DNA from: a virus
Strand: one strand, 5' to 3'
Virus record (IMG/VR): IMGVR_UViG_3300019776_000461
Coordinates: 20,703 to 84,702 of that record
DNA: 64,000 nt
A program made the translations under genes and the position numbers. Numbering within the stretch: the stretch's first letter is position 1; each line of letters begins with the position of its first letter. Under the pieces are notes generated by a model. It saw only the letters and a list, made by a program, of their open reading frames with translations. It was not told where the DNA came from and did no database searches. Positions 9,168-47,276 of the stretch are shown one piece after another.

Positions 9168-9175
9168 TAAGAATT

Positions 9176-9871: not shown

Positions 9872-9877
9872 AATATT

Positions 9878-20222: not shown

Positions 20223-20262
20223 CAAAACCATATACTTATTTGTGTATGGTTTTGTTTTTTAC
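20223..20262 (+). terminator. Rho-independent terminator
   Basis: A 13-bp stem CAAAACCATATAC (20223-20235) / GTGTATGGTTTTG (20242-20254) with one wobble pair and a 6-nt loop, followed by TTTTTT. It lies between the GNAT-like gene and the reductase. It also overlaps a spurious GTG start of the reductase frame, supporting the downstream ATG at 20305. Confidence 0.9.
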
Positions 20263-20304
20263 AATAAAAATGACGTTTTCAATAAAAAAATGATGGAGAT
20301 AAAA

Positions 20305-22158
20305 ATGGATATTAGTAATCGAATTCTTTCTGAAATAACTGTGTATATGAAATACGCTCGTTATTTACCAGAATTGAATAGAAGAGAAACTTGGAATGAG
20401 TTAGTAACAAGAAACAAAGAAATGCACCAACGTAAGTACCCACAGTTAGTAGACGAAATTGAAAACGTCTATAAGTTCGTTTACGATAAAAAGGTACTTC
20501 CATCAATGCGTTCACTTCAGTTTGGTGGTAAACCAATTGAAATTTCACCTAATCGTATTTACAATTGTGCTTATTTGCCTATTGATGATTGGCGTGCATT
20601 CGGTGAAGTAATGTTTCTTTTACTCGGTGGAACTGGCGTAGGTTACTCAGTTCAAAAGCACCACGTAGAACAACTTCCACCTATCCATAAACCAAAATCC
20701 AAAGAACGTCGTTATCTTATTGGAGATTCAATTGAAGGTTGGGCAGATGCAGTTAAAGCACTTGTTAAGTCTTATTTCACAGGTGGTTCATCGATTCACT
20801 TTGATTATTCAGATATTCGTCAGAAAGGTTCTCGTTTAATTACAAGTGGTGGTAAAGCTCCTGGTCCAGAACCGCTTCGTATTTGTATTGAGAAAATTCG
20901 TGCTATTCTTGACTTGAAAGGCGATGGTGAACAACTTTCACCGATTGAAGTACATGATATTGTTTGTCATGTTGCAGACGCAGTTCTTGCAGGTGGTATT
21001 CGTCGTGCTGCTCTCATTTCTCTTTTCTCTGCTGATGATGACGATATGATTTCATGTAAGTTTGGAAATTGGTGGGAATTGAATCCGCAACGTGGTAGAG
21101 CAAATAATTCAGCAGTTCTTCTTCGTAGTAAAGTATCTGAAGAATTTTTCAAATCACTTTGGAAGAAAATAGAATTATCTAATGCAGGTGAACCTGGTAT
21201 TTATCTTTCAAACGATAAAGATTGGGGAACAAACCCATGTTGTGAAATTGCACTTCGTCCATTTCAATTTTGTAACTTATGTGAAGTAAATGTATCAGAT
21301 GTTGTTGACCAAGAAGATTTAGAAGCAAGAGTTCGTGCTGCTACATTCATTGGTACACTTCAAGCTGGTTATACAGACTTCCATTATCTTCGCCCTATTT
21401 GGCAAAGAACTACCGAGAAAGACGCATTACTTGGAGTTGGTATGACAGGTATTGGTTCTGGTAAAGTAATGAAAATGGATTTAAAAGCAGCAACTAAAGT
21501 ATCAAGAGAAGAAAATGAAAGAGTTGCTTCCATACTTGGTATTAACAAATCTGCTCGTACAACTACAATTAAACCAGCAGGTACATCATCTTTAACTCTT
21601 GGGTGTTCATCTGGTATTCATGCATGGCACAATGATTTTTATTTACGTAGAGTTCGTGTTGGAAAGAATGAATCAATTTATTCTTATCTTGCAATCAATC
21701 ACCCAGAGTTGGTTGAAGATGAATACTTCCGTCCACACGATACTGCGGTAATTGGTGTTCCACAAAAAGCCCCCGAACACTCAATACTTCGTAGTGAATC
21801 ACCATTACAATTATTAGAAAGAGTAAAATGGTTTAACCAAAATTGGATTAAGCCAGGTCATCGCACTGGTATGAACACTCATAATATTTCTGCAACAGTT
21901 TCTATTCGTGAACATGAATGGGATGCGGTAGGTAATTGGATGTGGGAAAACAAAGAACACTTCAACGGTTTATCAGTATTACCATATGATGGTGGAACAT
22001 ATATTCAAGCTCCTTTTGAAGATATTACAAAAGAAGAGTACGAAAGATTATTAGAAACTTTACATGATGTTGATTTATCAAAGATTGTAGAAATGGATGA
22101 TAATACTGATTTGTCTGGCGAACTTGCTTGTGCAGGTGGTGCGTGTGAAATTAAATAG
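20305..22158 (+). CDS. nrdJ: Adenosylcobalamin-dependent (class II) ribonucleotide reductase
   Basis: 617 residues from the ATG at 20305, preceded by GATGGAGAT; the upstream GTG lies inside the terminator. Features match monomeric B12-dependent reductases: NCAYLPIDDW and GGTGVGYSVQKHHVEQLP near the N-terminus, TNPCCEIALRPFQFCNLCEV at the active site (~308), TTTIKPAGTSSLTLGCSSG, and a C-terminal Cys pair (CAGGACEIK) that re-reduces the active site. It converts ribonucleotides to deoxyribonucleotides using B12 instead of an iron or radical-SAM partner, so no small subunit or activase gene is needed. The thioredoxin-like gene at 26696 is a plausible reductant. Confidence 0.9.
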   Translation: MDISNRILSEITVYMKYARYLPELNRRETWNELVTRNKEMHQRKYPQLVDEIENVYKFVYDKKVLPSMRSLQFGGKPIEISPNRIYNCAYLPIDDWRAFGEVMFLLLGGTGVGYSVQKHHVEQLPPIHKPKSKERRYLIGDSIEGWADAVKALVKSYFTGGSSIHFDYSDIRQKGSRLITSGGKAPGPEPLRICIEKIRAILDLKGDGEQLSPIEVHDIVCHVADAVLAGGIRRAALISLFSADDDDMISCKFGNWWELNPQRGRANNSAVLLRSKVSEEFFKSLWKKIELSNAGEPGIYLSNDKDWGTNPCCEIALRPFQFCNLCEVNVSDVVDQEDLEARVRAATFIGTLQAGYTDFHYLRPIWQRTTEKDALLGVGMTGIGSGKVMKMDLKAATKVSREENERVASILGINKSARTTTIKPAGTSSLTLGCSSGIHAWHNDFYLRRVRVGKNESIYSYLAINHPELVEDEYFRPHDTAVIGVPQKAPEHSILRSESPLQLLERVKWFNQNWIKPGHRTGMNTHNISATVSIREHEWDAVGNWMWENKEHFNGLSVLPYDGGTYIQAPFEDITKEEYERLLETLHDVDLSKIVEMDDNTDLSGELACAGGACEIK

Positions 22159-26695: not shown

Positions 26696-26953
26696 ATGAT
26701 TACCGTTAAACATTACACAGCTTCTTGGTGTATGCCATGTAAACAACTTAAACCCATTATGAGTGAAATATTACTTAAACGGCCAAACATAAATTACAAA
26801 CTTATTGATGTGGATAATGATCCAGATGAAGCATCGATGTATGGTGTTCGTGGAGTTCCTACTGTGATATTTATGAAAGATGGTGTTGAAGTAAATAGAA
26901 TTACTGGTTTGGTTTCAAGAAAAAATTACGAAATGGCAATTGATAATTTATAA
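26696..26953 (+). CDS. Thioredoxin/glutaredoxin-like protein
   Basis: 85 residues. The redox motif is WCMPCKQLKP (~11-20) and the cis-Pro loop is VRGVPTVIFMKDG (~54-66). It is shorter than bacterial thioredoxin, lacking the first helix and strand, as in many phage versions. It probably recycles the B12-dependent ribonucleotide reductase. AAAGGA precedes the ATG. It heads a run of closely spaced genes through the PLP enzyme. Confidence 0.88.
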   Translation: MITVKHYTASWCMPCKQLKPIMSEILLKRPNINYKLIDVDNDPDEASMYGVRGVPTVIFMKDGVEVNRITGLVSRKNYEMAIDNL

Positions 26954-26962: not shown

Positions 26963-27661
26963 ATGACAGTTATAGAAGCGGTTTCTCCCGGTGACGCTTG
27001 GGTAAAAGTTTCTAAGCATTTGTTAGAGAAAGGGGAAAAAGTCGGTGAACTAATTGAAGAATTAAATGTAATGATGGAAATTACTCAGTTTGAAAGTGAT
27101 GATTGGTTTGATTCACACTTCAGAGAAGTAATGGGTGATGATAGAATTGATTTTGCTTCTTCTGTTACTTTCGTAGAACCTAAACCAAAAAAACCAATTA
27201 ACGATTTCTTTCAAGTAGAAGAAGGATTGGAATACCAATTCATTAAAGATCATTGGCATCAGTCCTATTGGGGAAGAATGATTAGTTGGCAAGGTACATT
27301 TAATCAAGTAGAAAACGTTATTAAAATTTTGAAACAAGGTAAAGCAGTTAAACGTTGTGAGTTAATTATATTTGACCCATCACGTGATTCACGCAATCCA
27401 TATTCTCAACCTTGTATGTTGATGATTGACTTGAAGCCACGTAATGGTAAGTTGTATTTAACTTCTGTTCTACGTTCTAATCGTGTTTCTAAAAGTGGTT
27501 ATGCTGATTATTCTGCTTTAGTTAATATGGGTAAGTTCTTAGCTAAAGAAAGTGATTTAGAGTTGGGAAAGGTTAGTGTATTAGCTTGTTCCTGCCACAT
27601 CGGTAAGATGAACAATGAACTTAAAAAAACAAAAGAATTGTTAAACATACTCAATAAATAA
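26963..27661 (+). CDS. Thymidylate-synthase-fold protein of uncertain substrate
   Basis: 232 residues. The C-terminal half aligns by eye with ThyA: KRCELIIFDPSRDSRNPYSQ, then PCML with catalytic-type Cys151, NGKLYLTSVLRSN (Arg-Ser of the phosphate site), and a D182 where ThyA has its base-selecting Asn if aligned without gaps. dCMP hydroxymethylases also have Asp at that place. The usual Asp after RS is Arg here and the H-I-Y motif is HIG. It could be a pyrimidine methylase, hydroxymethylase or a related modifying enzyme. It starts 9 bases after thioredoxin and is followed at once by the amidotransferase. Confidence 0.6.
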   Translation: MTVIEAVSPGDAWVKVSKHLLEKGEKVGELIEELNVMMEITQFESDDWFDSHFREVMGDDRIDFASSVTFVEPKPKKPINDFFQVEEGLEYQFIKDHWHQSYWGRMISWQGTFNQVENVIKILKQGKAVKRCELIIFDPSRDSRNPYSQPCMLMIDLKPRNGKLYLTSVLRSNRVSKSGYADYSALVNMGKFLAKESDLELGKVSVLACSCHIGKMNNELKKTKELLNILNK

Positions 27662-27662
27662 T

Positions 27663-29168
27663 ATGTGCGGTATAATAGCAACCGTCGGTTATACTAAAAC
27701 TGACGTTGATAATATGTTGGAAACCATCGCTCACCGTGGTAAAGATAACCGTGGTATAAAAGAATTTTCTTGGGGCGATAGAAAAGTTATACTCGGACAC
27801 AATCGCCTTGCTATTAACGATACTTCTGCTGCAGGAAATCAACCGATGGAATGGGAAGGTATTCACTTAGTAGTTAACGGTGAAATATGGAATTATCCCG
27901 AACTAAGAAAAGAATACGAAGAAAGAGGATATGAGTTCAAATCAAATTCAGATTCAGAACTTATACTGTTTGTGTACAAAGAACAAGAATTGAAAAGACT
28001 TAACGGTATGTTTTCTTTTGTTATTTGGGATAACGGAAAGCTAATTCTTTCTCGTGATTGGGTTGGTAAGTTACCGCTCTATATTTTTAACAATAACACT
28101 TACATTATTGCAAGTGAAATAAAATCTATTGTTGAACAATTACCCAATGCTGAAATTAAATTTGTACCGAAAAATTCTTTGATTGAAATAGATGTAAGTA
28201 CAGATAAAATAACAGTTCATAAAGATTACTATTTTAACTTTTCAAATGAAACAACTTCACCTGAAACACATGAAGAATGCAGTATAACCACGTACAATCT
28301 ACTGGAGAACGCGGTAAGTAAAAGATTGTTATCTGATGTACCTATTGCAACTTCGTTGAGTGGTGGGATTGATTCCGCTGTTATAACGTATTTATTATCT
28401 ACTAAAATACCGAACTTAAAAGCATATACAATTGCTTTTGATGAAGATTCGCCTGACTTGAAGTACGCAAGAATAGTTGCAAAACATTTGGGTATTCAAT
28501 TAGTTGAAGTTTTAGTTCCAAGAAATGTAGAACTATTAAAACAAAGATTTTTGGAATCGATAAGAGTTATTGAATATCCATCTACCGTTCAAATGCAAGT
28601 TGGTATTCTACAATCGTTTATAGCAGAACAGATGGCAAAGGATGGAATAAAAGTTGCTTTTAGTGGTGAAGGTTCTGATGAAGCATACGGTTCTTATGGA
28701 ATGATAAGAATGTTCAGTAAGAAACCAGACTGGTCGGATATTAGAAAGAAATTATTTGAAAAGCAATACTATGGTAATTTATTACGCGGTAATACTATTT
28801 TCATGTATTATGGAACAATAGAATTACGTTGTCCGTTTTTCGATATTGATTTTCTAAATTACACTACTAACTTAACGAACGAATTTCTATCTGATAAATC
28901 TCAATGGAAACTTCCACTTGCAGATGCATTCAGACCGTACTTGCCTAAAGAAGTTATTGAACAAGAGAAACGTGCTTTTCAAAAAGGTACAAACTTCAAA
29001 GGATATATTGAAGATATAATTCTAAATGATAAAGAAATAAACTTTCGTAATAGAAAAAAGATGCTTCATGTAATTGGTGATAACTTTGAAAAGATTCATG
29101 GATTCTCACATAAGAAGATGAAGGGCGAACTTATTGGTAATAATGGTGGAATATTCAAATGGATTTAA
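27663..29168 (+). CDS. asnB: Asparagine-synthetase-like glutamine amidotransferase
   Basis: 501 residues. The N-terminal glutaminase domain starts MCGIIATVGYT (Cys2 nucleophile), with NHRLAIND-type strands, NGEIWNY and SDSELIL. The synthetase domain has the PP-loop SLSGGIDSAVITYLL (~230) and SGEGSDEAYGSYG (~336), then RCPFFD. All key residues of class-B asparagine synthetases are present, so ATP-dependent amidation is likely. Either Asn supply or amidation of another carboxyl substrate is possible. The gene starts 1 base after the ThyA-like stop and overlaps the PLP gene by 10 bases, which ties the three together. Confidence 0.85.
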   Translation: MCGIIATVGYTKTDVDNMLETIAHRGKDNRGIKEFSWGDRKVILGHNRLAINDTSAAGNQPMEWEGIHLVVNGEIWNYPELRKEYEERGYEFKSNSDSELILFVYKEQELKRLNGMFSFVIWDNGKLILSRDWVGKLPLYIFNNNTYIIASEIKSIVEQLPNAEIKFVPKNSLIEIDVSTDKITVHKDYYFNFSNETTSPETHEECSITTYNLLENAVSKRLLSDVPIATSLSGGIDSAVITYLLSTKIPNLKAYTIAFDEDSPDLKYARIVAKHLGIQLVEVLVPRNVELLKQRFLESIRVIEYPSTVQMQVGILQSFIAEQMAKDGIKVAFSGEGSDEAYGSYGMIRMFSKKPDWSDIRKKLFEKQYYGNLLRGNTIFMYYGTIELRCPFFDIDFLNYTTNLTNEFLSDKSQWKLPLADAFRPYLPKEVIEQEKRAFQKGTNFKGYIEDIILNDKEINFRNRKKMLHVIGDNFEKIHGFSHKKMKGELIGNNGGIFKWI

Positions 29169-29998
29169 TACAAACACCCATTGAAGAATATGAACTCAAA
29201 GGAAAAAAAGTTTGGGTTAAACGTGATGATTTAGTAGGTGATGGAATAAATTATCCAAGGTGGGCAAAGATAGAAGGAATTAAACAAATTCTAAGAAGCC
29301 CTGCCATTGATAAAAACAAACCATTAACGCACCTTTCAGTATATGGTAGTTGGACAGGTTGGGTTTTATCTAAACTCTGTAAAGAAGAAGGTATAGAATT
29401 TATTTCTTCTTATCCAGATACAAAGAAATTCCCAGTGAGTTTAATTGAAAGAGTAATGATAAATGGTGGAAAATTAAATCCACTAAAACCAAATATAATG
29501 GCGATACTAAATAATCGTGTAAAGAAACAAGCAATGGAAAACGGGTGGCAAATGTTACCGTATGCGTTCAATCATCCAATGTATATTGCATACATGGGTA
29601 GTAGAATGAAACAAGTATTGGAGGATAATGATTTTAACCACTTAGTTGTTTCGATGGGAAGCGGTGTAACGTGTTCTGGACTTATAAATTCATTCTTACA
29701 TTATACAGATTGGCGAGATGTTGTTAGTAACAGACGGCAAGTTCATGGCATTACAATGTCATCGATAAAATCAACGAGAAAAATATTAGAACAAAATGGA
29801 GCAGGTGGTAATAATAATATTCACATTTATAAATCGCCATTTGCTTTTGACGATATGATGTTGGATTATTCAGTACCGTTTGATTGTAATGAGTTTTGGG
29901 ATAAAAAAATGTGGTTCTGGTTAGAAGAAAACATTGAGAAATTAGACGGAAAAGTATTATTTTGGAATATTGGTGGTTCATATTTACAATCGATTTAA
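29159..29998 (+). CDS. PLP-dependent enzyme, ACC deaminase / D-cysteine desulfhydrase-like
   Basis: 279 residues. The start TPIEEYELKGKKVWVKRDDL matches the fold-type II entry of ACC deaminases and D-cysteine desulfhydrases. NYPRWAKIEGIKQIL carries the likely Schiff-base Lys37. SMGSGVTCSG is the glycine loop for the PLP phosphate. The protein is shorter than the ~330 residues usual for the family. It is coupled to the AsnB-like gene, so its substrate may be linked to that pathway. Confidence 0.7.
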   Translation: MDLIQTPIEEYELKGKKVWVKRDDLVGDGINYPRWAKIEGIKQILRSPAIDKNKPLTHLSVYGSWTGWVLSKLCKEEGIEFISSYPDTKKFPVSLIERVMINGGKLNPLKPNIMAILNNRVKKQAMENGWQMLPYAFNHPMYIAYMGSRMKQVLEDNDFNHLVVSMGSGVTCSGLINSFLHYTDWRDVVSNRRQVHGITMSSIKSTRKILEQNGAGGNNNIHIYKSPFAFDDMMLDYSVPFDCNEFWDKKMWFWLEENIEKLDGKVLFWNIGGSYLQSI

Positions 29999-30014
29999 TA
30001 TAAATAAAGGAGTT

Positions 30015-30527
30015 ATGAAAATGGCACAGACGTGGCATAGAAGATGGGATGATAGTTATGCTGAGGAAGCATTCAAGAACAGATTAAATTTACCTATTAA
30101 GTATGTAAAGTTAAGTAAAGACGCAGTTAAACCAGAATACTCACAAGACGGTGATGCTGGTATGGACTTAACAGCGACTTCATTTAGAGTTACAGATACT
30201 TTCATGGAATTTGGAACTGGTATTGCGGTACAGATTCCAGAGAATCATGTTGGACTTTTATTTCCAAGAAGTTCAATTACAAAATCTTCACCAGGCGTTT
30301 CTCTAAAAAATTCAGTTGGTGTTATAGATTCAAATTATCGTGGTGAAATTCTTGTGAGATTTGAATTACCTTACTCAGGAGAGGTGGGTGAAAATATTCC
30401 AGTTGTTGGTGATAGAGTTGCACAATTGGTTATTATTCCATACCCAAGAGTGAAATTCGTAGAAGTAGAGAAACTACCCGATACAAACCGTGGTCAAGGC
30501 GGATTTGGTTCAACAGATAAACAGTAA
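30015..30527 (+). CDS. dut: dUTP diphosphatase (trimeric dUTPase)
   Basis: 170 residues from the ATG at 30015, which follows AAAGGAG at ideal spacing; the ORF extends upstream without a ribosome site. All five motifs are seen: DAGMDLTA, PRSSITK, GVIDSNYRGEI, GDRVAQLVI and RGQGGFGST. It hydrolyses dUTP to dUMP, keeping uracil out of DNA and feeding pyrimidine synthesis. Confidence 0.95.
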   Translation: MKMAQTWHRRWDDSYAEEAFKNRLNLPIKYVKLSKDAVKPEYSQDGDAGMDLTATSFRVTDTFMEFGTGIAVQIPENHVGLLFPRSSITKSSPGVSLKNSVGVIDSNYRGEILVRFELPYSGEVGENIPVVGDRVAQLVIIPYPRVKFVEVEKLPDTNRGQGGFGSTDKQ

Positions 30528-30574: not shown

Positions 30575-31204
30575 ATGTCAAAATTAACTAATATATTAAA
30601 AGAAAGTGGTTTATCGAGATTGGTTTACCACATGGAAATGCACGATTGCGGTACAATTACAGCCTTCCGTTCTAAAGAAGGCTGTGGTTTACCTGAAGAT
30701 TTACCGTACGCTCTACAAGATAACAAAAAAAGAAATGCTCAATTAAAAGCAAAACTTGAAATGATGGGGTACGGAACAACCGCAGTTAAAGGTGCTTATA
30801 TTGAAAACTACGGAACACCTGAAGCAATTGAAGTACGTGAAGATGTTTTCTTTGTTGTGGATTTACAAGACAAAGGAAACCTTGAAGCAGATTTAAGAAG
30901 ATTAGGTGAAGAGTATATGCAAGATTCTATTTTGTTTATACCAAGAGGTGGTAGAGGTTCTGTTCTCATCGGTACAAACCATTGTTCAGATTATCCAGGA
31001 TATGGCAGAACAATGCAATTCAATGATAGACAAATGGGCAAAGGTGGTCAGTTCATGACAAAAGTAAATGGTAGACCTTTTATATTTGAATCTAATTTAC
31101 TTGAACAAGTTGGAAACCATAACTATTATAGTGTTGCAAACAACATGGGTAAGTGGGCAATGAAAACTATTGCAAATAAAGATTGGAAAGATATTGAAAT
31201 TTAA
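30575..31204 (+). CDS. DUF3293-like protein with CTS-like N-terminus
   Basis: 209 residues. The N-terminus MSKLTNILKESGLSRL fits the shared KLxxILxE motif. The body has ITAFRSKEGC, NKKRNAQLKAKLEMMGYG, an EDVFFVVD strand and QDSILFIPRGG. This layout recalls the small DUF3293 family (eNr..L...L...G ... EesFfv ... QdS). No catalytic role is known to me. It is preceded by the exact TATATTTATAG element, which separates it from the nucleotide-metabolism operon and fits late expression. Confidence 0.55.
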   Translation: MSKLTNILKESGLSRLVYHMEMHDCGTITAFRSKEGCGLPEDLPYALQDNKKRNAQLKAKLEMMGYGTTAVKGAYIENYGTPEAIEVREDVFFVVDLQDKGNLEADLRRLGEEYMQDSILFIPRGGRGSVLIGTNHCSDYPGYGRTMQFNDRQMGKGGQFMTKVNGRPFIFESNLLEQVGNHNYYSVANNMGKWAMKTIANKDWKDIEI

Positions 31205-31828: not shown

Positions 31829-32989
31829 ATGTATTTAGATTACTTTGACAAGTTCAAAGGAATGAGTCCTTACCTTGCGATTGATGAAATAGAATGGAAG
31901 TATATTCAAGAAACATTTGAGAAGGAAGATGTTTTAGAATCGATGGCAACACTTTTAATGACTTATGATTTACCATACGCTGACATTTCTATTGAAGATA
32001 CAACTTCTGAGTTTCAAAAGTTGAAGGCGATTAAGTGGAAAGAAATGTTAAAAGAAGGTAAGTGGAAAGCCAGACATAGTTACAATTTAGATTTTGAATG
32101 GAACGGAAAACCATTATTCTTTTCAAGAAGTAATGTAGGTAACTCTGCATCAAATTACTTTCAACAGGTAAACCGTTGGAAAGTTGATGCTGCATACTCA
32201 CCTGGTCCAGCAAGAAGTTGGACTTCTCTTCGTTCTATGATTTCTATATCAAAAGCGTTCTATACATTGAAATTTAAAAAGATTGATAAAGCAGCAGTTC
32301 GTTCTGCACTAAGTCTTAGAAAATATGTTTGCTCTCAATTCAAACCAAATGTTGCAAAGGCATTATACGATATGTATGGTGCTAAAACAATATTAGACTT
32401 CTCGGCAGGATGGGGTGATAGATTATGTGGATTCTATGCATCGGATAAAGCAGAAACATATATTGGAATAGACCCTGCTCCAAATAATCATTCTGTTTAT
32501 CATGAACAAGCAGATTTTTATTCTAAACAATTAGGTTGGTTTGATACGAAAAAATCAGTACATTTATACGAAGCACCCGCGGAAGATTGGGATAATTCAG
32601 AGTGGATAGGTAAAGTTGATTTAATATTTACATCGCCTCCTTACTTTGATACCGAACGATATTCAAACGATGATAAACAAAGTTGGGTTAGGTACAAGAA
32701 TATAGATTCTTGGAACAAAGACTTTTTACATAAGGCATTGGATAATGTATGGGAAACTCTTAAATCTGGTGGTACAATGATTATAAACATTGCAGACATT
32801 TATAATAGACCAGCAAAATCATATTTGAAAATATGTGAACCTATGGTAGAATACATGAAAGAAAAAGTGGATTGTATATACGAAGGTGCGATGGGTATGG
32901 AAATGGCAGTACGGCCGTCCGATACTGGAATAGATTATGATGATAAAGCAAAATTTGCAGAACCAATGTGGGTATTCAAAAAGGCATAA
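31829..32989 (+). CDS. TSPPYF-type DNA methyltransferase-like protein, paralogue 1
   Basis: 386 residues. The C-terminal half is a SAM-dependent methyltransferase: DFSAGWGDRLCGF (motif I, ~189), YIGIDPAPNN (motif II acid) and FTSPPYFDTERYS (motif IV, ~266). The SPPY form is typical of amino-methyltransferases acting on cytosine N4 or adenine N6. An N-terminal domain of ~180 residues with helical segments precedes it and could bind DNA. It is one of three related genes in 7 kb. It runs without a gap into the polymerase gene (stop, one base, ATG). The target sequence cannot be predicted. Confidence 0.75.
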   Translation: MYLDYFDKFKGMSPYLAIDEIEWKYIQETFEKEDVLESMATLLMTYDLPYADISIEDTTSEFQKLKAIKWKEMLKEGKWKARHSYNLDFEWNGKPLFFSRSNVGNSASNYFQQVNRWKVDAAYSPGPARSWTSLRSMISISKAFYTLKFKKIDKAAVRSALSLRKYVCSQFKPNVAKALYDMYGAKTILDFSAGWGDRLCGFYASDKAETYIGIDPAPNNHSVYHEQADFYSKQLGWFDTKKSVHLYEAPAEDWDNSEWIGKVDLIFTSPPYFDTERYSNDDKQSWVRYKNIDSWNKDFLHKALDNVWETLKSGGTMIINIADIYNRPAKSYLKICEPMVEYMKEKVDCIYEGAMGMEMAVRPSDTGIDYDDKAKFAEPMWVFKKA

Positions 32990-35555: not shown

Positions 35556-36275
35556 ATGGAAAAATCAAAGTTATTAAACTTCATTAGCAAATATCACTTG
35601 GGTAAATTAGTTCAATCTGTTGCTTGGAATGCAAACGGTGGATTAACAACTCGTTTTATTTCTGATGACAAATGTGTTGTGGGAGAAATTAAACTAAAAA
35701 GTTTCAGCGGTCAAGTAGCAAAGTTTGGTGTGTACGATACAAACTTACTTACAAGTCTTCTTGGTGTTCTTGGTAACACTATTGACTTCAAAATTAACGG
35801 TGCAGACGATAAAGCATTCGCTTTAACATTAAGTGATAAATCTACAACTGTTAATTATATGTTAGCTGATTTGGCAGTAATTCCACCTGCACCAGAGTTG
35901 AAAGAACTTCCACCATTTGAATTAGAAATGTCAATTACAAAAGATTTTATTGATAAGTTTATCAAAGCTAAATCTGCTTTATCTGATATTGAAAAGTTTA
36001 CTATTCTTAAAAACGGTAAGACTGATAAATGGCAAATTGTAATTGGTTATGCTAATACAAACTCTAATAGAATTTCAATCGATATTGATTGTACTTGCGA
36101 ACAAGATTTTGAACCAATTTCTTTTTCAGCAAAGTATTTCAAAGAAATTCTATCGGCAAATAAAGATTTGAACGGTGGTTCAATGAAAGTTTCCTCACAA
36201 GGTTTAGCAAAAGTTGAATTTGATATTGACGATTTTGAATCAAGATATTTCTTAGTAAAATTGGAAAACAACTAA
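35556..36275 (+). CDS. gp45: Sliding clamp, T4 gp45-like
   Basis: 239 residues. The two-domain PCNA-like pattern shows as repeated amphipathic strands: VVGEIKLKSFSG, FGVYDTNLLTSLLG, then KFTILKNG, ISFSAKYFKEILSANKD and SQGLAKVEFD. The FSAKYFKEIL...N.D block is typical of phage gp45. The clamp tethers gp43 and in T4 also activates late transcription, which is relevant to the candidate late promoters here. The stop shares one base with the next ATG. Confidence 0.88.
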   Translation: MEKSKLLNFISKYHLGKLVQSVAWNANGGLTTRFISDDKCVVGEIKLKSFSGQVAKFGVYDTNLLTSLLGVLGNTIDFKINGADDKAFALTLSDKSTTVNYMLADLAVIPPAPELKELPPFELEMSITKDFIDKFIKAKSALSDIEKFTILKNGKTDKWQIVIGYANTNSNRISIDIDCTCEQDFEPISFSAKYFKEILSANKDLNGGSMKVSSQGLAKVEFDIDDFESRYFLVKLENN

Positions 36276-37909
36276 TGAAAAAGTATTTCTATGAAAAAAG
36301 TGATATTCTGTCCTGGCCATCGAACATAACGTATGGCGAACTGGTTACGTTTGACGATAACAGGTTTTATGAATGGGCAGAAGATTTACGAATGAGGATT
36401 CTAACTGATTGGGATAATAATGGGAAACCACCAGTCGTTGGAAGAACTGAGGAAGAGATTAATCAATCATTCTCGAAACTCCGTCAGTTTAACGCTTCAT
36501 CTATTTTTCATAGTGTGGAAGATGGCAATGACTCTGACATGATTGGAGTCATTGCTAATTTCACAAAAGTTGGTTCTGCTGCAAATCAATTCTTTCCAAC
36601 AATGCTAAAAACTAAAATTGCATCTGGCATGGGAAGTGATTCTGGTAAATCGATTTACGATTATTTTACAGACTCTATGAAAGAAACATTTCATCATATT
36701 ATGAAGAGAAGTGTTTACAACGATTCTATGTATTTGTACAGTAAGTCTTTATCTTCAAATCAAGTAAAGAATCCTTACTTCAAAGAAGGTGAAACTCTTC
36801 GTGATTTCTTCATGGCGTATAAAAATGGTGATGGAAGATTCGATGGACAAGGTGTTCGTATTTCTAAAATATCGTGCACTCTACAAACTCAAAGTAAGAA
36901 ATATAAAAAGTATTTAACTATAAAGGCAGATGAGATTAGACAGTTCTTAGCGGAAGGTTTGATTGATGACTTCATGTTATTTACTTTGGGTAATCCAGAA
37001 GATTTAACTGATACATTTAATATACAAAAAGAAGGTTCTGAACCGAGGGCAAATGTTTATATTGTTCGTGTTTACGAAAAGAATATAAAACTATTTCCAA
37101 GTGCAATACAAGTATTTCGTATGTCATTCTGTCAGCCAGCGGTAAACTTTCCGCCTATGACCGCAAAGTTTCTTTATGAACACTTTACACAACATATACC
37201 TGCAAGTGAAACAGTAACAGTATATGACCCAAGTTCTGGCTGGGGTGGTCGTATTTTAGGTGCAATGTCTGTTGGTCGCCCAATACATTATGTTGGAACA
37301 GACCCAAATACAGATAACTTTATTGATGAATTAGGAATAAGTCGTTATGAATACCTTGCAGACTTTTTTCTAAAATCAATAGGCGAGCGAGGTACAAATG
37401 TATCTTCAAAGTTTTTTGTTACAAATGAAAATCATACATACGAACTTTTCCAAGATGGTTCGGAAACAATTCAATTTAATCCTAAATTTCAAAAGTATAA
37501 AGGTAAGTTAGATTTTGTTTTTACTTCACCTCCATACTTTAATAGAGAAATGTATTCTGATGATGCAACTCAATCGTATAAAGCACATAGTGAGTATGCT
37601 GATTGGCGTGATAACTTTTTACGCCCAACATTAGAAACAGCGGTTGCTTATTTGAAATCAGATCGTTATCTTTGTTGGAATATAGCTGATATTAGAATTT
37701 CAACTAACAAAATAGTTCACCTTGAAAAAGATTCAATTGATATATTAGAATCATTGGGAATGGAGTATGTAGGTAAATTTGGAATGGCAATGGGTAGAAT
37801 GATTGGTAACTCAGACCAAGAAAAATTGGCTGAAAGAACTTCTAATAAAGTTTTTCACAAAGGTCAATGGTGGAAACAAGAACCTATTTTTATATTTAAA
37901 AAACCATAA
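36275..37909 (+). CDS. TSPPYF-type DNA methyltransferase-like protein, paralogue 2
   Basis: 544 residues, the longest of the three paralogues. Motif I is DPSSGWGGRILGA (~317), the acid is in YVGTDPNTDN, and motif IV is FTSPPYFNREMYSDD (~416). The ~300-residue N-terminal part is larger than in the others and contains FHHIMKRSVYNDSMYL and SKISCTLQTQSKK. ATQSY after motif IV is shared with paralogue 3 (ETQSY). It lies between the clamp gene (one-base overlap) and paralogue 3 (one-base gap), so it is expressed with the replication proteins. Confidence 0.75.
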   Translation: MKKYFYEKSDILSWPSNITYGELVTFDDNRFYEWAEDLRMRILTDWDNNGKPPVVGRTEEEINQSFSKLRQFNASSIFHSVEDGNDSDMIGVIANFTKVGSAANQFFPTMLKTKIASGMGSDSGKSIYDYFTDSMKETFHHIMKRSVYNDSMYLYSKSLSSNQVKNPYFKEGETLRDFFMAYKNGDGRFDGQGVRISKISCTLQTQSKKYKKYLTIKADEIRQFLAEGLIDDFMLFTLGNPEDLTDTFNIQKEGSEPRANVYIVRVYEKNIKLFPSAIQVFRMSFCQPAVNFPPMTAKFLYEHFTQHIPASETVTVYDPSSGWGGRILGAMSVGRPIHYVGTDPNTDNFIDELGISRYEYLADFFLKSIGERGTNVSSKFFVTNENHTYELFQDGSETIQFNPKFQKYKGKLDFVFTSPPYFNREMYSDDATQSYKAHSEYADWRDNFLRPTLETAVAYLKSDRYLCWNIADIRISTNKIVHLEKDSIDILESLGMEYVGKFGMAMGRMIGNSDQEKLAERTSNKVFHKGQWWKQEPIFIFKKP

Positions 37910-37910
37910 A

Positions 37911-38996
37911 ATGAAAATTGATATTGAAAGTTTTGGAAAATTTATAAATGCTGACCCACTTGAAATTCGTTTGTGGAAAGAAACAGATGAATTTTTTAGT
38001 GACAAGCGTACGTTAGATGATACAATAGATTGTGTTTTTCAGTATTACCGTAAACATGGTTATCCATATATGAGTATTACTGATGAAGAAAAACATGAAC
38101 ACATGAAGAAACTTCAAAAATATGACTACGATAAACTGTTTAAGAATAATGATATTATTCAAACAATGCATGGACTTCGCTTGGCTTGGTCTTATTTTCC
38201 ACATGGAATGGAAGTGAAATGTGGTAATTCTAAAATGTCTCCTATGGATAATTTTTTGAATGACCATACATTTAAGATGACAATACGTAAGTGCTTGAAA
38301 TGGTTATATAAGCACACGGGCAATGGAAGTTGGCAAGAAAACCGTTTACGTCAATCATTAAAAATATATTCTGGTGTTCAAGGTGTTTCAAACTTTAGAC
38401 CAACTGCTGCAGGTGCTATATATAAAAGATTTGGTGGCAATGGTGTAATGTGGGATATGTCATGTGGTTGGGGTGGTAGATTAGTTGGTGCATTAGCATC
38501 ACCGTATATCGAAACATATATTGGAACAGAACCATCAACGAAAACATTTGAAGGACTTTGTAAACTACGTGATGATTTCTCGTATCTTGGTAAAGATATT
38601 CAACTACACATGATGGGTTCAGAAGATTTTATTCCAGAGAAAGAAAGTTTAGATTTGTGTTTTACTTCACCACCATATTTCGATACAGAAAAATATGCAG
38701 ATGAAGAAACTCAATCGTATAACAAGTTTCCAACTCGTGATACTTGGGGTTCTGGCTTTCTTTTTGGAACATTTAAGAATTGTTTCCATGGGTTGAAGCC
38801 AGGTGGTTATATGTTAATAAACATTGCTAATACACCGAAGTATAAAGACTTAGAAGAAATGACAATTCATTATGCAAAAGAAGCTGGATTTATTGAAGAA
38901 AATACTATAAATCTTATTCTTTCTTCTGTAATGGGTGCTGGTTATAAAAGAGAACCTATTTTTATATTTCGGAAGCCGTTGGTAGATAAGGAATAA
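37911..38996 (+). CDS. TSPPYF-type DNA methyltransferase-like protein, paralogue 3
   Basis: 361 residues from the ATG at 37911, one base after the previous stop; the frame is open 108 bases upstream inside paralogue 2 but without a ribosome site. Motif I is DMSCGWGGRLVGA (~181), the acid is in YIGTEPSTKT, and motif IV is FTSPPYFDTEKYADE (~252). The N-terminal ~175 residues are distinct from the other two, which would suit different targets. Substrate unknown. Confidence 0.75.
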   Translation: MKIDIESFGKFINADPLEIRLWKETDEFFSDKRTLDDTIDCVFQYYRKHGYPYMSITDEEKHEHMKKLQKYDYDKLFKNNDIIQTMHGLRLAWSYFPHGMEVKCGNSKMSPMDNFLNDHTFKMTIRKCLKWLYKHTGNGSWQENRLRQSLKIYSGVQGVSNFRPTAAGAIYKRFGGNGVMWDMSCGWGGRLVGALASPYIETYIGTEPSTKTFEGLCKLRDDFSYLGKDIQLHMMGSEDFIPEKESLDLCFTSPPYFDTEKYADEETQSYNKFPTRDTWGSGFLFGTFKNCFHGLKPGGYMLINIANTPKYKDLEEMTIHYAKEAGFIEENTINLILSSVMGAGYKREPIFIFRKPLVDKE

Positions 38997-40265: not shown

Positions 40266-40721
40266 ATGGCTGCTAAGAATATATTCGACCACTTAAAAGG
40301 TGTTACACTTCGTAAAACCAAGTGGGAATCCTTATCTGAAGAAGATAAGAAGAGTTGGAACAATTATATGATTTCACGTTTCTTCTCTATGGAGATGGAA
40401 CTAACGGACGTAATAAATGAGTTTCAGAAATACTCAAATGGAATATTATCATCGGAGGATTATTATAAACTATTATCGGACGCCTTACCAAAACATTCGT
40501 TCTTTCTAAAGTATGTTAAAGCTAAGAACAGAGTTGACATAGATGCAGAACTAATTACTTTATTTTGTAATCATTTCCAACTTGGAAAGAACGAAGTGTT
40601 TGAGTATATTCGTTTTCTTAAAAGAGAAAACCCAATTGAACTAACTAACATTTTGAAAAAGTACGGCACAAAAGAAGATGTAATAAAAGATTTTGAAAAG
40701 AAACTGAAGACAATTAAATGA
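40266..40721 (+). CDS. gp62: Clamp loader small subunit, gp62-like
   Basis: 151 residues. KTKWESLSEEDKKSWNNYMI followed by RFFSME is the typical start of phage gp62 proteins, which lack ATPase motifs and complete the gp44 ring. The size is slightly below T4 gp62 (187). The location two genes after gp44 supports the call. Confidence 0.75.
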   Translation: MAAKNIFDHLKGVTLRKTKWESLSEEDKKSWNNYMISRFFSMEMELTDVINEFQKYSNGILSSEDYYKLLSDALPKHSFFLKYVKAKNRVDIDAELITLFCNHFQLGKNEVFEYIRFLKRENPIELTNILKKYGTKEDVIKDFEKKLKTIK

Positions 40722-40729
40722 GGAATAAA

Positions 40730-41101
40730 ATGGCTATTAAAGAAATAGATTTAGGGCGGAAACAAAATGGGGCTGTATCTGAAATTGAAGAGAAGTTTCC
40801 TAATATGACCAAGGAGTTCAAACGTATTCAACAAGAACAGTATGAACTCTTCTGTGCAAAGCAAAAGAACTATGGCCCAGATAATATTTCCATGGGAAGT
40901 AATCTCGAACGAGAAGACGATCGTAAACTTTCTTTGCAGGGTTTATTCTTTCGTATTAACGATAAGATAAACAGATACAAACAAATGATTATGTTTGGTT
41001 CACAAGACGCAGTTGGTGAATCTCTAAATGATACATTCAAAGATATTTCTGTTTATGGAATTATCGCACAACTTGTTCAATCTGGTAAATGGGGGAAATA
41101 A
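40730..41101 (+). CDS. Nucleotide-modification-associated (Nmad1/DUF1599-like) protein
   Basis: 123 residues from the ATG at 40730, which has GAGG at good spacing; an alternative ATG at 40718 overlaps the gp62 stop. QEQYELFCAKQKNYGPDNIS, GLFFRINDKINRYKQM and DTFKDISVYGIIAQL match the pattern of the DUF1599 family, named nucleotide modification associated domain 1. That name reflects its frequent location near DNA-base modification genes in phages. The stop overlaps the SAM synthetase ATG by one base. The match is by eye. Confidence 0.55.
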   Translation: MAIKEIDLGRKQNGAVSEIEEKFPNMTKEFKRIQQEQYELFCAKQKNYGPDNISMGSNLEREDDRKLSLQGLFFRINDKINRYKQMIMFGSQDAVGESLNDTFKDISVYGIIAQLVQSGKWGK

Positions 41102-42258
41102 TGAGTATATATATTTGGACTTCGGAATATGTAAGTGAAGGTCATCCTGATAAAATAGCTGACCAAATTTCAGATGCAGTTCTTGATTGGTACTTACAAA
41201 GAGACCCAGATGCAAAGGTTGCGTGTGAGGTTATGGTAAAGGATAGTGATATTTATGTTTCTGGTGAAATAAAATCAACGGTTGATAAAGATAAAAGAAC
41301 TTTAGAATTATCACTAACTCGATTAATTAGAGGACTTATAAAAGATATTGGATACACAAAAGAAGAATCCCCTTTCTTTAATTCAGACTATTGCCGTATT
41401 CATTTCAATATATCAACTCAATCATCAGAGATTAATCAAGCAGTTGATAAAGGAGATGTTGTTACAGCAGGAGACCAAGGTATTATGTTTGGTTATGCAA
41501 CTCGTGAAACTCCAACGTATATGCCGGTAGCAATTTACTTAGCTAAAAAACTAATTGAAGTTGCAACGGATATTAGAAAGAAAGGTAGTAAACTTGGACA
41601 TGTACAAAAACTTCGTCCTGATATGAAGAGTCAGGTGTCTGTTGCGTATAGTGGTAATGAAGCAGTTGGTATTCATTCTGTTGTATTTTCAACTTGTCAT
41701 TCTGAGTTGATTTCACTTGAAGAACTTAGAAAGTATTTCCACTCTGATATTTTACCAAAGGTATTAGAAAGTATTCCAGAAGAACTTGCTAAACTGTTTA
41801 CAGATAAAACTGTTTACCATATAAATCCTGCTGGTGAATGGAACATAGGTGGTCCAGTTTCTGATTGTGGATTAACTGGTAGAAAGATTGTGGTTGACCA
41901 ATATGGTGCTGATTGTGAAATTGGTGGCGGTGCTTTCTCAGGCAAAGACCCAAGTAAAGTTGATAGAAGTGCAGCATATATGGCTCGTCATATTGCCTTA
42001 AAAACACTTCATGAAAATGAAGAAGCAAATAAAATTAAAGTTCAATTAGCATATGTAATCGGTGAAGAGTTTCCTGTTTCATATCGTATATTTGACCCAA
42101 CAACTGGAAAAGAATATGGACTTGGTAAATTTAGTTTCAATGATTTAACCCCAAATAAAATCATTGAAAGATTAAAATTAAAAACTCCTATTTATTTACA
42201 GACTGCTAAGTACGGTCATTTTGGAAATAAAGATTTAGAATGGGAGAAAATTGGATGA
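41101..42258 (+). CDS. metK: S-adenosylmethionine synthetase
   Basis: 385 residues. TSEYVSEGHPDKIADQISDA at the N-terminus, TAGDQGIMFGYA (~121) and GGGAFSGKDPSKVDRSAAY (~276) are the three signatures of MetK, and the catalytic His/Asp/Lys are in place. It makes SAM from ATP and methionine. A phage copy next to three methyltransferase-like genes suggests a large need for SAM. ATG at 41101 is used because of the TAATG overlap with the previous gene. Confidence 0.95.
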   Translation: MSIYIWTSEYVSEGHPDKIADQISDAVLDWYLQRDPDAKVACEVMVKDSDIYVSGEIKSTVDKDKRTLELSLTRLIRGLIKDIGYTKEESPFFNSDYCRIHFNISTQSSEINQAVDKGDVVTAGDQGIMFGYATRETPTYMPVAIYLAKKLIEVATDIRKKGSKLGHVQKLRPDMKSQVSVAYSGNEAVGIHSVVFSTCHSELISLEELRKYFHSDILPKVLESIPEELAKLFTDKTVYHINPAGEWNIGGPVSDCGLTGRKIVVDQYGADCEIGGGAFSGKDPSKVDRSAAYMARHIALKTLHENEEANKIKVQLAYVIGEEFPVSYRIFDPTTGKEYGLGKFSFNDLTPNKIIERLKLKTPIYLQTAKYGHFGNKDLEWEKIG

Positions 42259-43914: not shown

Positions 43915-45339
43915 ATGGCAAAGAAAAAAATATTATTACTATCTGACGATTTAAGATTAACGTCTGGTATAGCAACTGTTTCTCGTGATTTAGTTCTCGG
44001 TACAGTAAAAGATTTTGATTGGATTCAAGTGGGTGCTGCTATTAATCACCCAGACAAAGGGAAGATATTCGATTTATCTCAAGACGCAAGAGAACGTAGT
44101 GGTGATGAAACAGCTAGTGTTAGAGTTTTTTGTAATGATGGATACGGTGATCCATTTCTCATTCGTAGGTTGATTGATATAGAAAAACCAGATGCTATAT
44201 TACATTTTACAGACCCAAGATTTTGGGGATGGTTATATAATATGGAACATGAAATCCGTAAAAAAATTCCATTGATGTATTTGAATATATGGGATGGTGC
44301 TGGATTAATTGGAAATACCCCAACAGACCCAATGTGGAATAAAGAAGCGTATGCTAGTTGTGATTTATTAATGTCAATTTCAAAACAAACTTATGGTATA
44401 AATCATAGAGTTTTAAAAAGATTCAATGAAGAAATTGGTGAGCATAGAATAACTTATGTTCCACACGGAATCGATACTGATATGTTTTTCCCAATTAATA
44501 ATACGCATAGTGATTGGGGCAAACTACAAGAAGAACGTAAAAAAATTCGTAATGGTAATGAAGATAAGTTCGTTGTTATGTGGAATAACAGAAATATTCA
44601 TAGGAAACACCCAGGTGATGTTGTACTCGCATATAAACATTTTTGCCAACTCGTAGATAAAAATGGTGGTAATGCAGCAGAAGATTGTTCACTACTAATG
44701 CATACCCAACCAATAGACCCAAATGGAACTGACTTGGTAGCTTTAGTTGGTGAGTTATGTAATGAGTATACAGTTTTGTTTGATGATAAAATAGTTCCAT
44801 CACCACAATTGAATATTATTTACAATTCAGCTGATGTTGTTGTTAACATGGCTTCAAATGAAGGGTTTGGATTGGGAACAGCGGAAGCAGTTGCAGCAGG
44901 TGTACCTATCGTTGTTAATGTAACAGGTGGACTTCAAGACCAATGTGGTTTCATTAATCCAGAAACCAATCAATACTTTACACCAGATGATTATTTGAAA
45001 GTACACACACTCCATAGGAAAGATGAATGGGGACATTTGCAACACGGTGAATGGGTAAAACCAGTTTGGCCATCAAACATTTCAATACAAGGTTCAGTAC
45101 CAACTCCTTATATTTTTGATGATAGAGCAGATTTCCGAGATGTTGGACAAGCATTATATGAATGGTATAAGACTTCTAAATCAGATAGAGTATTCGCTGG
45201 ATTAAAAGGAAGAGAATTTATGATGAAGCCAGAAGTTGGAATGTCTCGTTTTAATATGTGTGAAAGAATTTCAAAAAGTATTAATGATACGTTTGAAAAT
45301 TTTGTTCCTAGAAAAAGTTTTGAATTATATTTAGTGTGA
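43915..45339 (+). CDS. Glycosyltransferase, GT-B fold (GT4-like)
   Basis: 474 residues. The N-terminal domain starts KILLLSDDLRLTSGIATVSR. The C-terminal domain has VPHGIDTDMFFPI and SNEGFGLGTAEAVAAGVPIV (~313), where the E-x7-E sugar-nucleotide motif is recognisable. GT4 enzymes transfer sugars from nucleotide donors with retention. First gene of a 14-gene cluster. Confidence 0.88.
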   Translation: MAKKKILLLSDDLRLTSGIATVSRDLVLGTVKDFDWIQVGAAINHPDKGKIFDLSQDARERSGDETASVRVFCNDGYGDPFLIRRLIDIEKPDAILHFTDPRFWGWLYNMEHEIRKKIPLMYLNIWDGAGLIGNTPTDPMWNKEAYASCDLLMSISKQTYGINHRVLKRFNEEIGEHRITYVPHGIDTDMFFPINNTHSDWGKLQEERKKIRNGNEDKFVVMWNNRNIHRKHPGDVVLAYKHFCQLVDKNGGNAAEDCSLLMHTQPIDPNGTDLVALVGELCNEYTVLFDDKIVPSPQLNIIYNSADVVVNMASNEGFGLGTAEAVAAGVPIVVNVTGGLQDQCGFINPETNQYFTPDDYLKVHTLHRKDEWGHLQHGEWVKPVWPSNISIQGSVPTPYIFDDRADFRDVGQALYEWYKTSKSDRVFAGLKGREFMMKPEVGMSRFNMCERISKSINDTFENFVPRKSFELYLV

Positions 45340-45346
45340 GGAAATA

Positions 45347-46648
45347 ATGAGTTATAGACCAAAATTAGTTTTTTGTGGACCAGTTACAACTATGAGTGGA
45401 TATGGATCTCATGCGAGAGATTTACTTTTATCACTTATAGAAATGGATAAGTTTGATGTTCAAGTAATATCAATAAATTGGGGAGAAACTCCAATGGATG
45501 CATTGGAATCCGATAATCCAGATATGAAAAAAATTAAAGACTTAATAATTCCAGGCTTACAATCACAGCCAGATATTTGGATGCAATGTACTATTCCAAA
45601 CGAATTTCAACCAGTTGGTAAATATAACATAGGAATTACTGCTGGTGTTGAAACCGATGCGTGTTCTCCTGAATGGGTTGATGGTTGCAATCGTATGAAC
45701 TTAATCATAGTTCCATCTAAACATGCTAAATGGGTATTTGAAAATACACAATATGATAAAATGGATAAACAAACAAATCAGAAAATAGGAACACTTAGTG
45801 TAACAGTACCAGTTGAGGTATTACACGAAGGCGTGAGAACTGATATATATGGAACAGATTTAGAGAAAGATTCTAATATAGTAGAAACATTAGATTCTAT
45901 TCCTAACGATTTCGTATATTTGTTTGTTGGACATTGGCTTAAAGGAGATTTCGGTCAAGATAGAAAAGATATTTCTGGACTAATTTATACTTTCTGTGAA
46001 ACATTTGGTGATACACCAAATCCACCAGCACTTCTTTTGAAATGTACAAGTGGAACATTTTCTATATCCGATAGAAGCAGAGTAATGGATAAAATAAATC
46101 TTATTAAAAAAATGAGTACAAAAAGAAATCTACCTGAAATTTATCTATTGCACGGTGAACTAACTGATAGTCAAATGAATTCTCTTTACAATCATAATAA
46201 AATAAAGGCTATGGTTTCATTTACAAAAGGTGAAGGATACGGAAGACCAATTGCAGAATTTATGGCATCTGGCAAACCTATTCTTGTTTCTGGTTGGAGT
46301 GGACACATGGACTTTATTAGTGAAAAGTTTCACATTCCATTAAAAGGTAAACTATTAGAGGTTCATCATAGTGCAGTTTGGGATACTATTATAAACAAAG
46401 GTACACGTTGGTTTACAGTAGATTATCAAAGTGCAGCAGAAACACTTGATAAAGTTCATAAAAACTATAACAAATATCTACAAAATTCTAAAATTGGAAT
46501 TCGTGAATTAAAAAGTATATGGTCATATACTTCCATGTGTAAAAAGTTTGAAGATATGTTAGATAAAAAACTTCCAAAGTTTGCAGAGAAAGTTACTCTT
46601 AGTTTACCTAAGCTAAGAAAAATTAGTAGTTCAGGAGAAACAAAATGA
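45347..46648 (+). CDS. Glycosyltransferase, GT-B fold (GT4-like)
   Basis: 433 residues. VFCGPVTTMSGYGSHARDLL at the start, NIGITAGVETDACSPEWVD and VLHEGVRTDIYG in the middle, and FTKGEGYGRPIAEFMASGKP (~293) as the donor-binding E-x7-E motif. This is a different subfamily from the gene before. Gap of 7 bases upstream; ATGA overlap downstream. Confidence 0.85.
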   Translation: MSYRPKLVFCGPVTTMSGYGSHARDLLLSLIEMDKFDVQVISINWGETPMDALESDNPDMKKIKDLIIPGLQSQPDIWMQCTIPNEFQPVGKYNIGITAGVETDACSPEWVDGCNRMNLIIVPSKHAKWVFENTQYDKMDKQTNQKIGTLSVTVPVEVLHEGVRTDIYGTDLEKDSNIVETLDSIPNDFVYLFVGHWLKGDFGQDRKDISGLIYTFCETFGDTPNPPALLLKCTSGTFSISDRSRVMDKINLIKKMSTKRNLPEIYLLHGELTDSQMNSLYNHNKIKAMVSFTKGEGYGRPIAEFMASGKPILVSGWSGHMDFISEKFHIPLKGKLLEVHHSAVWDTIINKGTRWFTVDYQSAAETLDKVHKNYNKYLQNSKIGIRELKSIWSYTSMCKKFEDMLDKKLPKFAEKVTLSLPKLRKISSSGETK

Positions 46649-47268: not shown

Positions 47269-47276
47269 CATGAATC

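Follow-up and report, generated by a model that had tools for sequence, protein, structure and literature searches.

A conserved three-gene phage cassette predicted to modify cytosine

Known routes of phage base modification and the locus under study

Several described systems decorate pyrimidines with the enzyme classes considered here. Pseudomonas phage M6 carries a 5-NedU thymidine hypermodification cassette (PMC9476957; Lee et al. 2021), in which a ThyA-family enzyme makes the handle and the PLP enzyme gp052 is encoded beside the amino acid:DNA transferase (ADDT), a radical SAM protein and the 5-hmdU DNA kinase. In Synechococcus phage S-B43, the CmoA-CmoX-CmoY system produces 5-carboxymethylcytosine, and the ligase CmoY amidates carboxymethyl-C in DNA (PMC12783734). 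T4-type dCMP hydroxymethylase and the CMP hydroxymethylase MilA act on cytosine nucleotides, as does the phage dCMP hydroxylase AfhB. Finally, a 5-hydroxymethylcytosine carbamoyltransferase pathway was found by MetaGPA, in which Asp at position 177 and a residue other than His at position 147 (E. coli ThyA numbering) are tied to modified cytosine (PMC8670742). A literature search for a link between asparagine synthase and thymidylate synthase in phage hypermodification found none.

We analyzed a window of 64,000 nucleotides from an uncultivated aquatic phage (positions 20,703 to 84,702 of IMG/VR record IMGVR_UViG_3300019776_000461; all coordinates below are those of the window). The initial annotation had described a tight operon of ThyA-like, AsnB-like and PLP enzymes, and this observation is confirmed. 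Three joined genes lie on the + strand: a thyA-like gene (26963-27661, 232 aa), an asnB-like gene (27663-29168, 501 aa) and a gene for a PLP enzyme (29159-29998, 279 aa; here PALP). The first two are separated by 1 base and the last two overlap by 10 bases. A thioredoxin gene (26696-26953, +; Pfam Thioredoxin, 2.9e-15) lies 9 bases upstream and by spacing belongs to the same transcription unit. It is near the trio in most but not all relatives, and is probably an RNR reductant rather than part of the pathway. A dUTPase gene (30012-30527, +) follows directly downstream; this nucleotide-pool enzyme is not retained next to the trio in most relatives. In contrast, the gene for a SPPY-motif DNA methyltransferase (31829-32989, +) is a recurrent neighbour of the cassette in several lineages and a possible partner. 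At the DNA level, similarity to named phages was limited to one 41-base match.

The arrangement is far more than chance. ThyA, a ligase and PALP are kept together in 45 of 45 distinct PALP loci that hold the ThyA-like gene, in at least two phage lineages, and every locus that holds this gene with enough downstream sequence has the same partners. The median pairwise identity of ThyA and AsnB is 81 and 80%, respectively, where that of DNA polymerase is 58%, and close pairs show strong purifying selection (dN/dS 0.03-0.15). The cassette often adjoins DNA polymerase or DNA methyltransferase genes. Radical SAM genes join the operon in three loci (L032, L126 and L198), as in M6. Note that a gene fusion in a further locus (L046) was not used as Rosetta-stone evidence, as it deletes the catalytic Cys1 and may be an assembly collapse at a short repeat.

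The ThyA-like enzyme

The ThyA-like protein scored just above the cut-off of Pfam Thymidylat_synt (26.5 against 24.3 bits) and is annotated as thymidylate synthase by both Pfam and PHROGs. The best NCBIfam match was the methanogen TS family TIGR03283, below its cut-off. One genome scan for bacterial or archaeal homologues found none, so that this family was not compared residue by residue. By alignment, the catalytic Cys is present (Cys151, codon 27413-27415; E. coli Cys146), followed by Met152 in place of His147. Asp182 (codon 27506-27508) replaces Asn177 within the invariant motif SKSGYAD. Cys151 and Asp182 are invariant in an alignment of 29 sequences. Thus, two features expected of a dUMP-methylating enzyme, Asn177 and His147, are absent, and the protein carries the cytosine-type residues. 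Related records of 276-289 kb carry a second, canonical ThyA with Asn177/His147, so the copy in the trio is not needed for dTMP.

A search of solved structures by sequence returned only MilA (E 2e-5) and then AfhB (E 0.012). In a Foldseek search, the top hits were AfhB entries (PDB 9iqu, 9iqc), followed by TS and MilA. The TS fold with Asp177 and non-His147 agrees with a dCMP/CMP 5-hydroxymethylase. However, the residues of the folate site are changed: the Trp80/Trp83 region is missing, Asp169 is Arg, Gly173 is Ser, and the C-terminus that provides closure is truncated. Asp169, which is retained in T4 gp42, MilA and every other thymidylate synthase and hydroxymethylase aligned here, is an invariant Arg here, in all three lineages aligned. 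Hydroxymethylation by methylene-folate is therefore not assured.

These changes allow the alternative that the handle is made independently of folate, by a flavin-type (AfhB-like) dCMP hydroxylase or with another electrophile, giving 5-hydroxycytosine or a directly attached group and not 5-hydroxymethylcytosine, with the rest of the pathway unaltered. The AfhB entries are described as a phage dCMP hydroxylase and a flavin-dependent monooxygenase with dCMP and FAD, and residue 169 is Asn in AfhB. The sequence is nevertheless closer to MilA, the motif SKSGYAD is not seen in AfhB, and the structural model is weak around the Cys loop. The flavin site of AfhB was not compared, and neither flavin binding nor hydroxylation was assayed. 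We regard this alternative as possible but less likely than the pathway proposed below.

The AsnB-like ligase and the PLP enzyme

The AsnB-like protein matched Asn_synthase and GATase_7 (145 and 113 bits) and scored above the TIGR01536 asparagine synthase cut-off (290.6 against 267.1 bits). The glutaminase residues (Cys1, Arg49, Asn74, Asp98) and the SGGxDS ATP loop are intact. In contrast, the acceptor region of asparagine synthetase B (T322-T323-x-R325 and FSDG in E. coli) reads V-Q-M-Q/E and FQKG in the window. T323, R325 and FSDG are changed in all 35 family members, with Q at 323 and FQ in all of them; the role of these residues was not examined here. Free aspartate is thus an unlikely acceptor.

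In six loci, AsnB is replaced by a glutaminase-free ligase. This replacement matched CmoY of S-B43 (E 1e-5) and a Staphylococcus phage homologue located between methyltransferase genes; the match to F1_67 had E 4e-13. The best phage hit of the window's AsnB, TurkishDelight gp124 (E 8e-60), lies between two methyltransferase genes with ParB-like genes, the layout described for CmoY clusters, but is not itself proven to be such a ligase. Whether the window's enzyme belongs with CmoY is not settled by these matches. The acceptor-region changes are shared by these phage ligases.

The PLP enzyme matched Pfam PALP only weakly (16.7 bits, below the cut-off) but PHROG 7093 at 5e-26. By tblastn it is homologous to M6 gp052 (E 3e-22 over 96%), with the shared C-terminal motif PF.CN.F...K.W.WL. 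Foldseek placed its predicted fold (type II) nearest D-cysteine desulfhydrase (E 1e-12) and ACC deaminase, at only about 15% structural identity; activity on ACC or D-cysteine was not measured. We initially suspected loss of the PLP lysine, as the NKTRK motif is absent. However, alignments with M6 and ACC deaminase place the predicted Schiff-base lysine at Lys37 (codon 29267-29269), invariant in the motif W[AG]K.

PALP also occurs without ThyA, together with a D-2-hydroxyacid dehydrogenase or an Asp/Asn hydroxylase, and with a divergent AsnB. Its fold relatives act on free D-cysteine, serine and threonine, and control genomes also gave hits to PHROG 7093. These observations would suit an action of the three enzymes on a free small molecule (amino acid, nucleoside or cell-wall precursor) during infection, with a product that never enters DNA. 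We consider this unlikely: a cytosine-type ThyA is the partner in 45 loci, the closest phage relatives of PALP and of both ligases sit in DNA-modification clusters, and the cassette often has DNA polymerase or methyltransferase genes as neighbours.

Confinement of the enzymes to asparagine and dTMP synthesis had been named in advance as an outcome that would overturn a role in base modification. Auxiliary metabolism of this kind, with amino-acid breakdown to feed replication, is consistent with the family assignments of AsnB and ThyA. It was rejected as very unlikely in view of Asp177/Met147, the second canonical ThyA in large relatives, the altered acceptor region, and the replacement of AsnB by a glutaminase-free ligase.

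A proposed pathway and its relation to known systems

The trio is best explained, with moderate confidence, as a compact cytosine hypermodification cassette that makes an amidated, amino-acid-derived C5 modification. In this view, the ThyA-like enzyme attacks C6 of a cytosine nucleotide with Cys151 and puts a one-carbon or oxygen handle on C5 (hydroxymethyl most likely, hydroxyl possible). An amino-acid-derived group would be placed on, or made from, this handle, and the PLP enzyme would remodel an alpha-amino-acid group on it, by decarboxylation in analogy with phage M6 or by elimination. The AsnB-like ligase would then activate a carboxylate of the modification with ATP and cap it with glutamine-derived ammonia; in some relatives a CmoY-like ligase without a glutaminase would do this with another amine. 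The product would shield phage DNA from host nucleases. Our analysis demonstrates the gene unit, the homologies, the residues and their conservation, the ligase swap and the failure to find the known attaching enzymes, whereas cytosine as substrate, DNA as destination, the order of steps and the attached group are inferred. No nucleoside data were obtained.

The handle-making and attaching enzymes of both known pathways were not detected in the 11-15 relatives searched. The M6 kinase and ADDT were found in 0 of 15 related records, with M6 as positive control, and CmoA and a C5 cytosine carboxymethyltransferase (CmoX) in 0 of 11. How a carboxylate reaches the base is thus unexplained, with the reservation that these records may be fragments. 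No T4-type dNMP kinase was found. A more speculative possibility, which we consider doubtful, is that the three enzymes alone install an amino-acid-type group by chemistry not seen before. The ThyA-like protein, its folate site rebuilt around invariant Arg and Lys, would activate C5 as a nucleophile, a PLP-generated amino-acid electrophile (such as aminoacrylate from serine) would be added to it, and the ligase would amidate the carboxylate. No kinase, amino-acid transferase or carboxy-SAM would be needed, and PALP subtypes and ligase types would be exchanged between phages to vary the product.

The interpretation in the initial annotation, a candidate base-modification pathway, is partly supported. 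The trio is a conserved functional unit, the ThyA-like enzyme carries the cytosine-type residue, and sequence matches link the ligase (to CmoY), and homology the PLP enzyme (to that of M6), to phage base-modification enzymes, a link that could not be known from the sequence alone. Base modification is likely and the target is probably cytosine, where cytosine or a different pyrimidine had been suggested. The AsnB-like enzyme, described as intact, has intact catalytic sites but an altered acceptor region. The PLP enzyme, said to resemble ACC deaminase, has as its closest annotated relative a phage hypermodification enzyme. The 'other changed ligands' of the ThyA-like enzyme include lost folate-site residues. 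That the product is in DNA, and what it is, has not been shown.

If correct, the cassette would be a further route to elaborate DNA bases, on cytosine, in phages found in many environmental metagenomes. It joins enzyme classes until now seen in separate pathways and comes with natural swaps (ligase type, PLP subtype, optional radical SAM, dehydrogenase alternative) that let the chemistry be worked out gene by gene. The ThyA-like enzyme also raises the question of what replaces folate in a thymidylate-synthase fold whose folate residues are gone.

Compared with the M6 cassette, the locus shares the homologous PLP enzyme, a ThyA-family enzyme to make the handle and, in some relatives, radical SAM neighbours. 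However, the M6 ThyA-family enzyme has Asn177 (uracil type), and no AsnB/CmoY-type ligase is annotated in the M6 stretch read; with the kinase and ADDT undetected in the 15 records searched, and Asp177 not of the uracil type, membership in the M6-type thymidine pathway was rejected. With the CmoA-CmoX-CmoY system the locus shares an AsnB-superfamily ligase beside a cytosine-modifying enzyme; both glutaminase and glutaminase-free versions exist, and the latter matches CmoY here. Here a ThyA-like enzyme takes the place of the handle maker and a PLP enzyme is added, and identity with the known system was rejected as no CmoA or C5 methyltransferase was found in the 11 records searched. T4-type dCMP hydroxymethylase and MilA have in common with the ThyA-like protein the TS fold, catalytic Cys, Asp177 and non-His147, but the match is weak, over about 105 residues only, and the ThyA-like protein differs by D169 to R, G173 to S, Y209 to G and a shortened folate side. 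AfhB, the best Foldseek match, is likewise a small TS-fold protein with Asp177 but without Asp169, although only 15-18% identical. As in the MetaGPA pathway, a cytosine-type ThyA is paired with tailoring enzymes on a phage contig, here an AsnB-like ligase and a PLP enzyme and not a carbamoyltransferase.

Genomic setting and conservation of the trio

The window spans bases 20703-84702 of an 84,702-base viral record, has a G+C content of ~33% and, judging by its gene content (UvsX, DnaB-type helicase, clamp loader, SSB and family-B polymerase), derives from a T4-like phage. The observation made in the initial annotation, a tight operon of ThyA-like, AsnB-like and PLP enzyme genes at 26963-29998, was confirmed. 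The three genes follow a thioredoxin gene after 9 bases, are joined by 1 base and by a 10-base overlap, and are followed by dUTPase, an S-adenosylmethionine (AdoMet)-lyase-like protein (30575-31204; Pfam 2.5e-10), a DNA methyltransferase and DNA polymerase. Several DNA methyltransferase-like genes are present in the window (31829-32989, 36275-37909, 37803-38996 and 48109-48780), and members of the SPPY family sit immediately beside the cassette in several lineages. Note that the window also encodes a protein matching DUF1599, 'nucleotide modification associated domain 1' (40718-41101; E 1.8e-4, just below the cut-off), in front of a phage-encoded S-adenosylmethionine synthetase (41089-42258), as well as a block of glycosyltransferases and a nucleotide-sugar epimerase (43915-55444), which could decorate DNA bases or surface glycans. 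An adenosylcobalamin-dependent (class II) ribonucleotide reductase is found at 20242-22158. In L046, one of the related loci, this gene is in three pieces and the polymerase in two, suggesting inserts.

To determine whether the trio is a conserved module, we scanned IMG/VR with the ThyA-like protein and obtained 46 relatives at 75-99% identity. Wherever the contig continues far enough, a ligase and the PLP enzyme (PALP) follow in order. A second scan, with the PALP alignment, gave 116 relatives (80 kept) and revealed a second lineage with ThyA at 47-50%, AsnB at 64-67% and PALP at 65-69%, in which the same cassette occurs in a different genomic setting (methyltransferase upstream, HD-domain and late genes downstream). 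After removal of duplicates, 45 loci have ThyA with PALP, and always a ligase with them; the trio is a module. Within the first lineage, the median pairwise identity is 81% for ThyA and 80% for AsnB, compared to 58% for both DNA polymerase and PALP. The conservation of ThyA is partly an ascertainment effect, because loci were found through it, but AsnB was not used for the search. The dN/dS of close pairs is 0.03-0.15. In L046, ThyA (1-218) and AsnB (from residue 14) form one open frame of 710 aa (L046:10001-12133) that lacks the glutaminase Cys1, reflecting either a real deletion or an assembly collapse at a short repeat. In another locus, L018, a fusion of an ABC-type ATPase with a GNAT acetyltransferase (8766-9938; PHROG 11143, function unknown) lies next to the cassette, a layout that recalls Mom-like enzymes.

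Sequence features of the three enzymes

The ThyA-like enzyme has the catalytic Cys (SQPCM), Arg127, Arg166 and Ser167 for phosphate, and His207, but Asp at position 177 and Met at position 147. In MetaGPA, these two positions separate ThyA proteins of modified-cytosine contigs from ordinary ones (PMC8670742). The only sequence relatives among solved structures are the CMP hydroxymethylase MilA and, with the profile, AfhB. Foldseek placed AfhB (phage dCMP hydroxylase, flavin) first, followed by thymidylate synthases and MilA; the model used is fair overall (pTM 0.80) but weak in the Cys loop. Unlike T4 gp42, MilA and the hydroxymethylase-like proteins aligned, the enzyme has Arg at 169. It also has Ser at 173, Gly at 209 and Trp or Phe at 94, and lacks the Trp80/83 region. 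The motif RS[NQM]R[VI]SKSGYAD is fixed across the three lineages. Thus, the cytosine-type substrate mark is present while the folate site has been rebuilt. Large relatives (276-289 kb) carry in addition a canonical ThyA with Asn177, His147 and Asp169, and the copy in the trio therefore has another job. In one relative, a canonical ThyA fragment contains an in-frame TAA (G005:C1:120102-120305).

We next analyzed the ligase. The AsnB-like protein keeps Cys1, Arg49, Asn74, Asp98 and SGGxDS, but at the sites of E. coli TTIR and FSDG the window has VQMQ and FQKG. Gln at 323, the absence of Arg at 325 and FQ hold in all 35 family members, in the divergent AsnB proteins of the dehydrogenase-type operons (see below) and in gp124 of Streptomyces phage TurkishDelight. 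The latter, the best phage hit (E 8e-60), lies between two methyltransferases beside ParB-like genes, the setting described for CmoY clusters; glutaminase-type CmoY proteins form the second largest cluster (PMC12783734). In six loci, AsnB is replaced in place by a 308-aa ligase without glutaminase. Its hits are F1_67 of a Staphylococcus phage, flanked by a methyltransferase-domain gene and a cytosine methyltransferase gene, and the S-B43 protein in the position described as CmoY, which joins glycine to 5-carboxymethylcytosine in DNA. Thus, two enzymes of one chemical type exchange at one position: the step is most likely carboxylate activation and amide formation, and glutamine is not essential to it. 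In phages with the glutaminase-free ligase, a GroEL gene lies directly downstream of PALP (L043:12462-14084 and L047:12062-13681).

For the PLP enzyme, AlphaFold gave a good fold-type-II model (pLDDT 86), which Foldseek placed with D-cysteine desulfhydrase and an ACC deaminase homologue. The resemblance to ACC deaminase proposed in the initial annotation therefore holds for the fold. However, the closest annotated relatives are 65 phage records led by Pseudomonas phage M6 gp052 (E 3e-22, 96% of length). In M6, this gene lies between an amino acid:DNA transferase and a radical SAM gene, with 5-hmdU DNA kinase nearby, the cassette for thymidine hypermodification (PMC9476957; 5-NedU, PMC6449724). 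The M6 enzyme is reported to be a decarboxylase (Lee et al. 2021). Lys37 of the window's enzyme aligns with the lysine of M6 SFSK and with the ACC deaminase lysine. PALP comes in two subtypes (about 70% and 45% identical to that of the window) beside nearly identical ThyA and AsnB. For example, loci L024 and L025 share 94% in ThyA and 89% in AsnB but only 47% in PALP.

Variant operons around the PLP enzyme

Radical SAM genes join the operon in loci L032, L126 and L198. In L128, L134, L135, L137 and L154/L155, several of which share polymerase or methyltransferase neighbours with the window's family, ThyA is absent from the stretch and PALP follows a divergent AsnB and a 2-hydroxyacid dehydrogenase. 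Other loci have PALP with that dehydrogenase and Asp/Asn hydroxylases. ThyA and the dehydrogenase were never seen together (45 against 16 loci), and none of the 11 ThyA-type records of the window's family hold the dehydrogenase. This is the strongest reason for caution about DNA as the destination of the product, since these enzymes also suit small-molecule chemistry. In L133, L136, L145 and L150, operons of PALP and a 2-hydroxyacid dehydrogenase-like gene, in some with an Asp/Asn beta-hydroxylase and a weakly beta-glucosyltransferase-like gene, represent a second uncharacterised pathway around the same PLP enzyme.

Interpretation and relation to known pathways

Taken together, we favour, with moderate confidence, a reading in which the trio modifies C5 of cytosine, probably ending in an amide-capped amino-acid-derived group in DNA. 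The proposal of a base-modification pathway in the initial annotation is partly supported. The handle may be hydroxymethyl or, if the enzyme is AfhB-like, hydroxyl. Our analysis does not identify how the amino-acid or carboxyl group is attached; the boldest reading, which we regard as unlikely, is that the three enzymes do so themselves.

Finally, we searched related records for the remaining enzymes of known pathways. CmoA, C5 cytosine methyltransferase and T4-type dNMP kinase were not found in 11 records, and the M6 kinase and amino-acid transferase families were not found in 15 records, with M6 as positive control. On the records searched, which may be fragments, the trio is therefore a member of neither known pathway. 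It works like parts of both.
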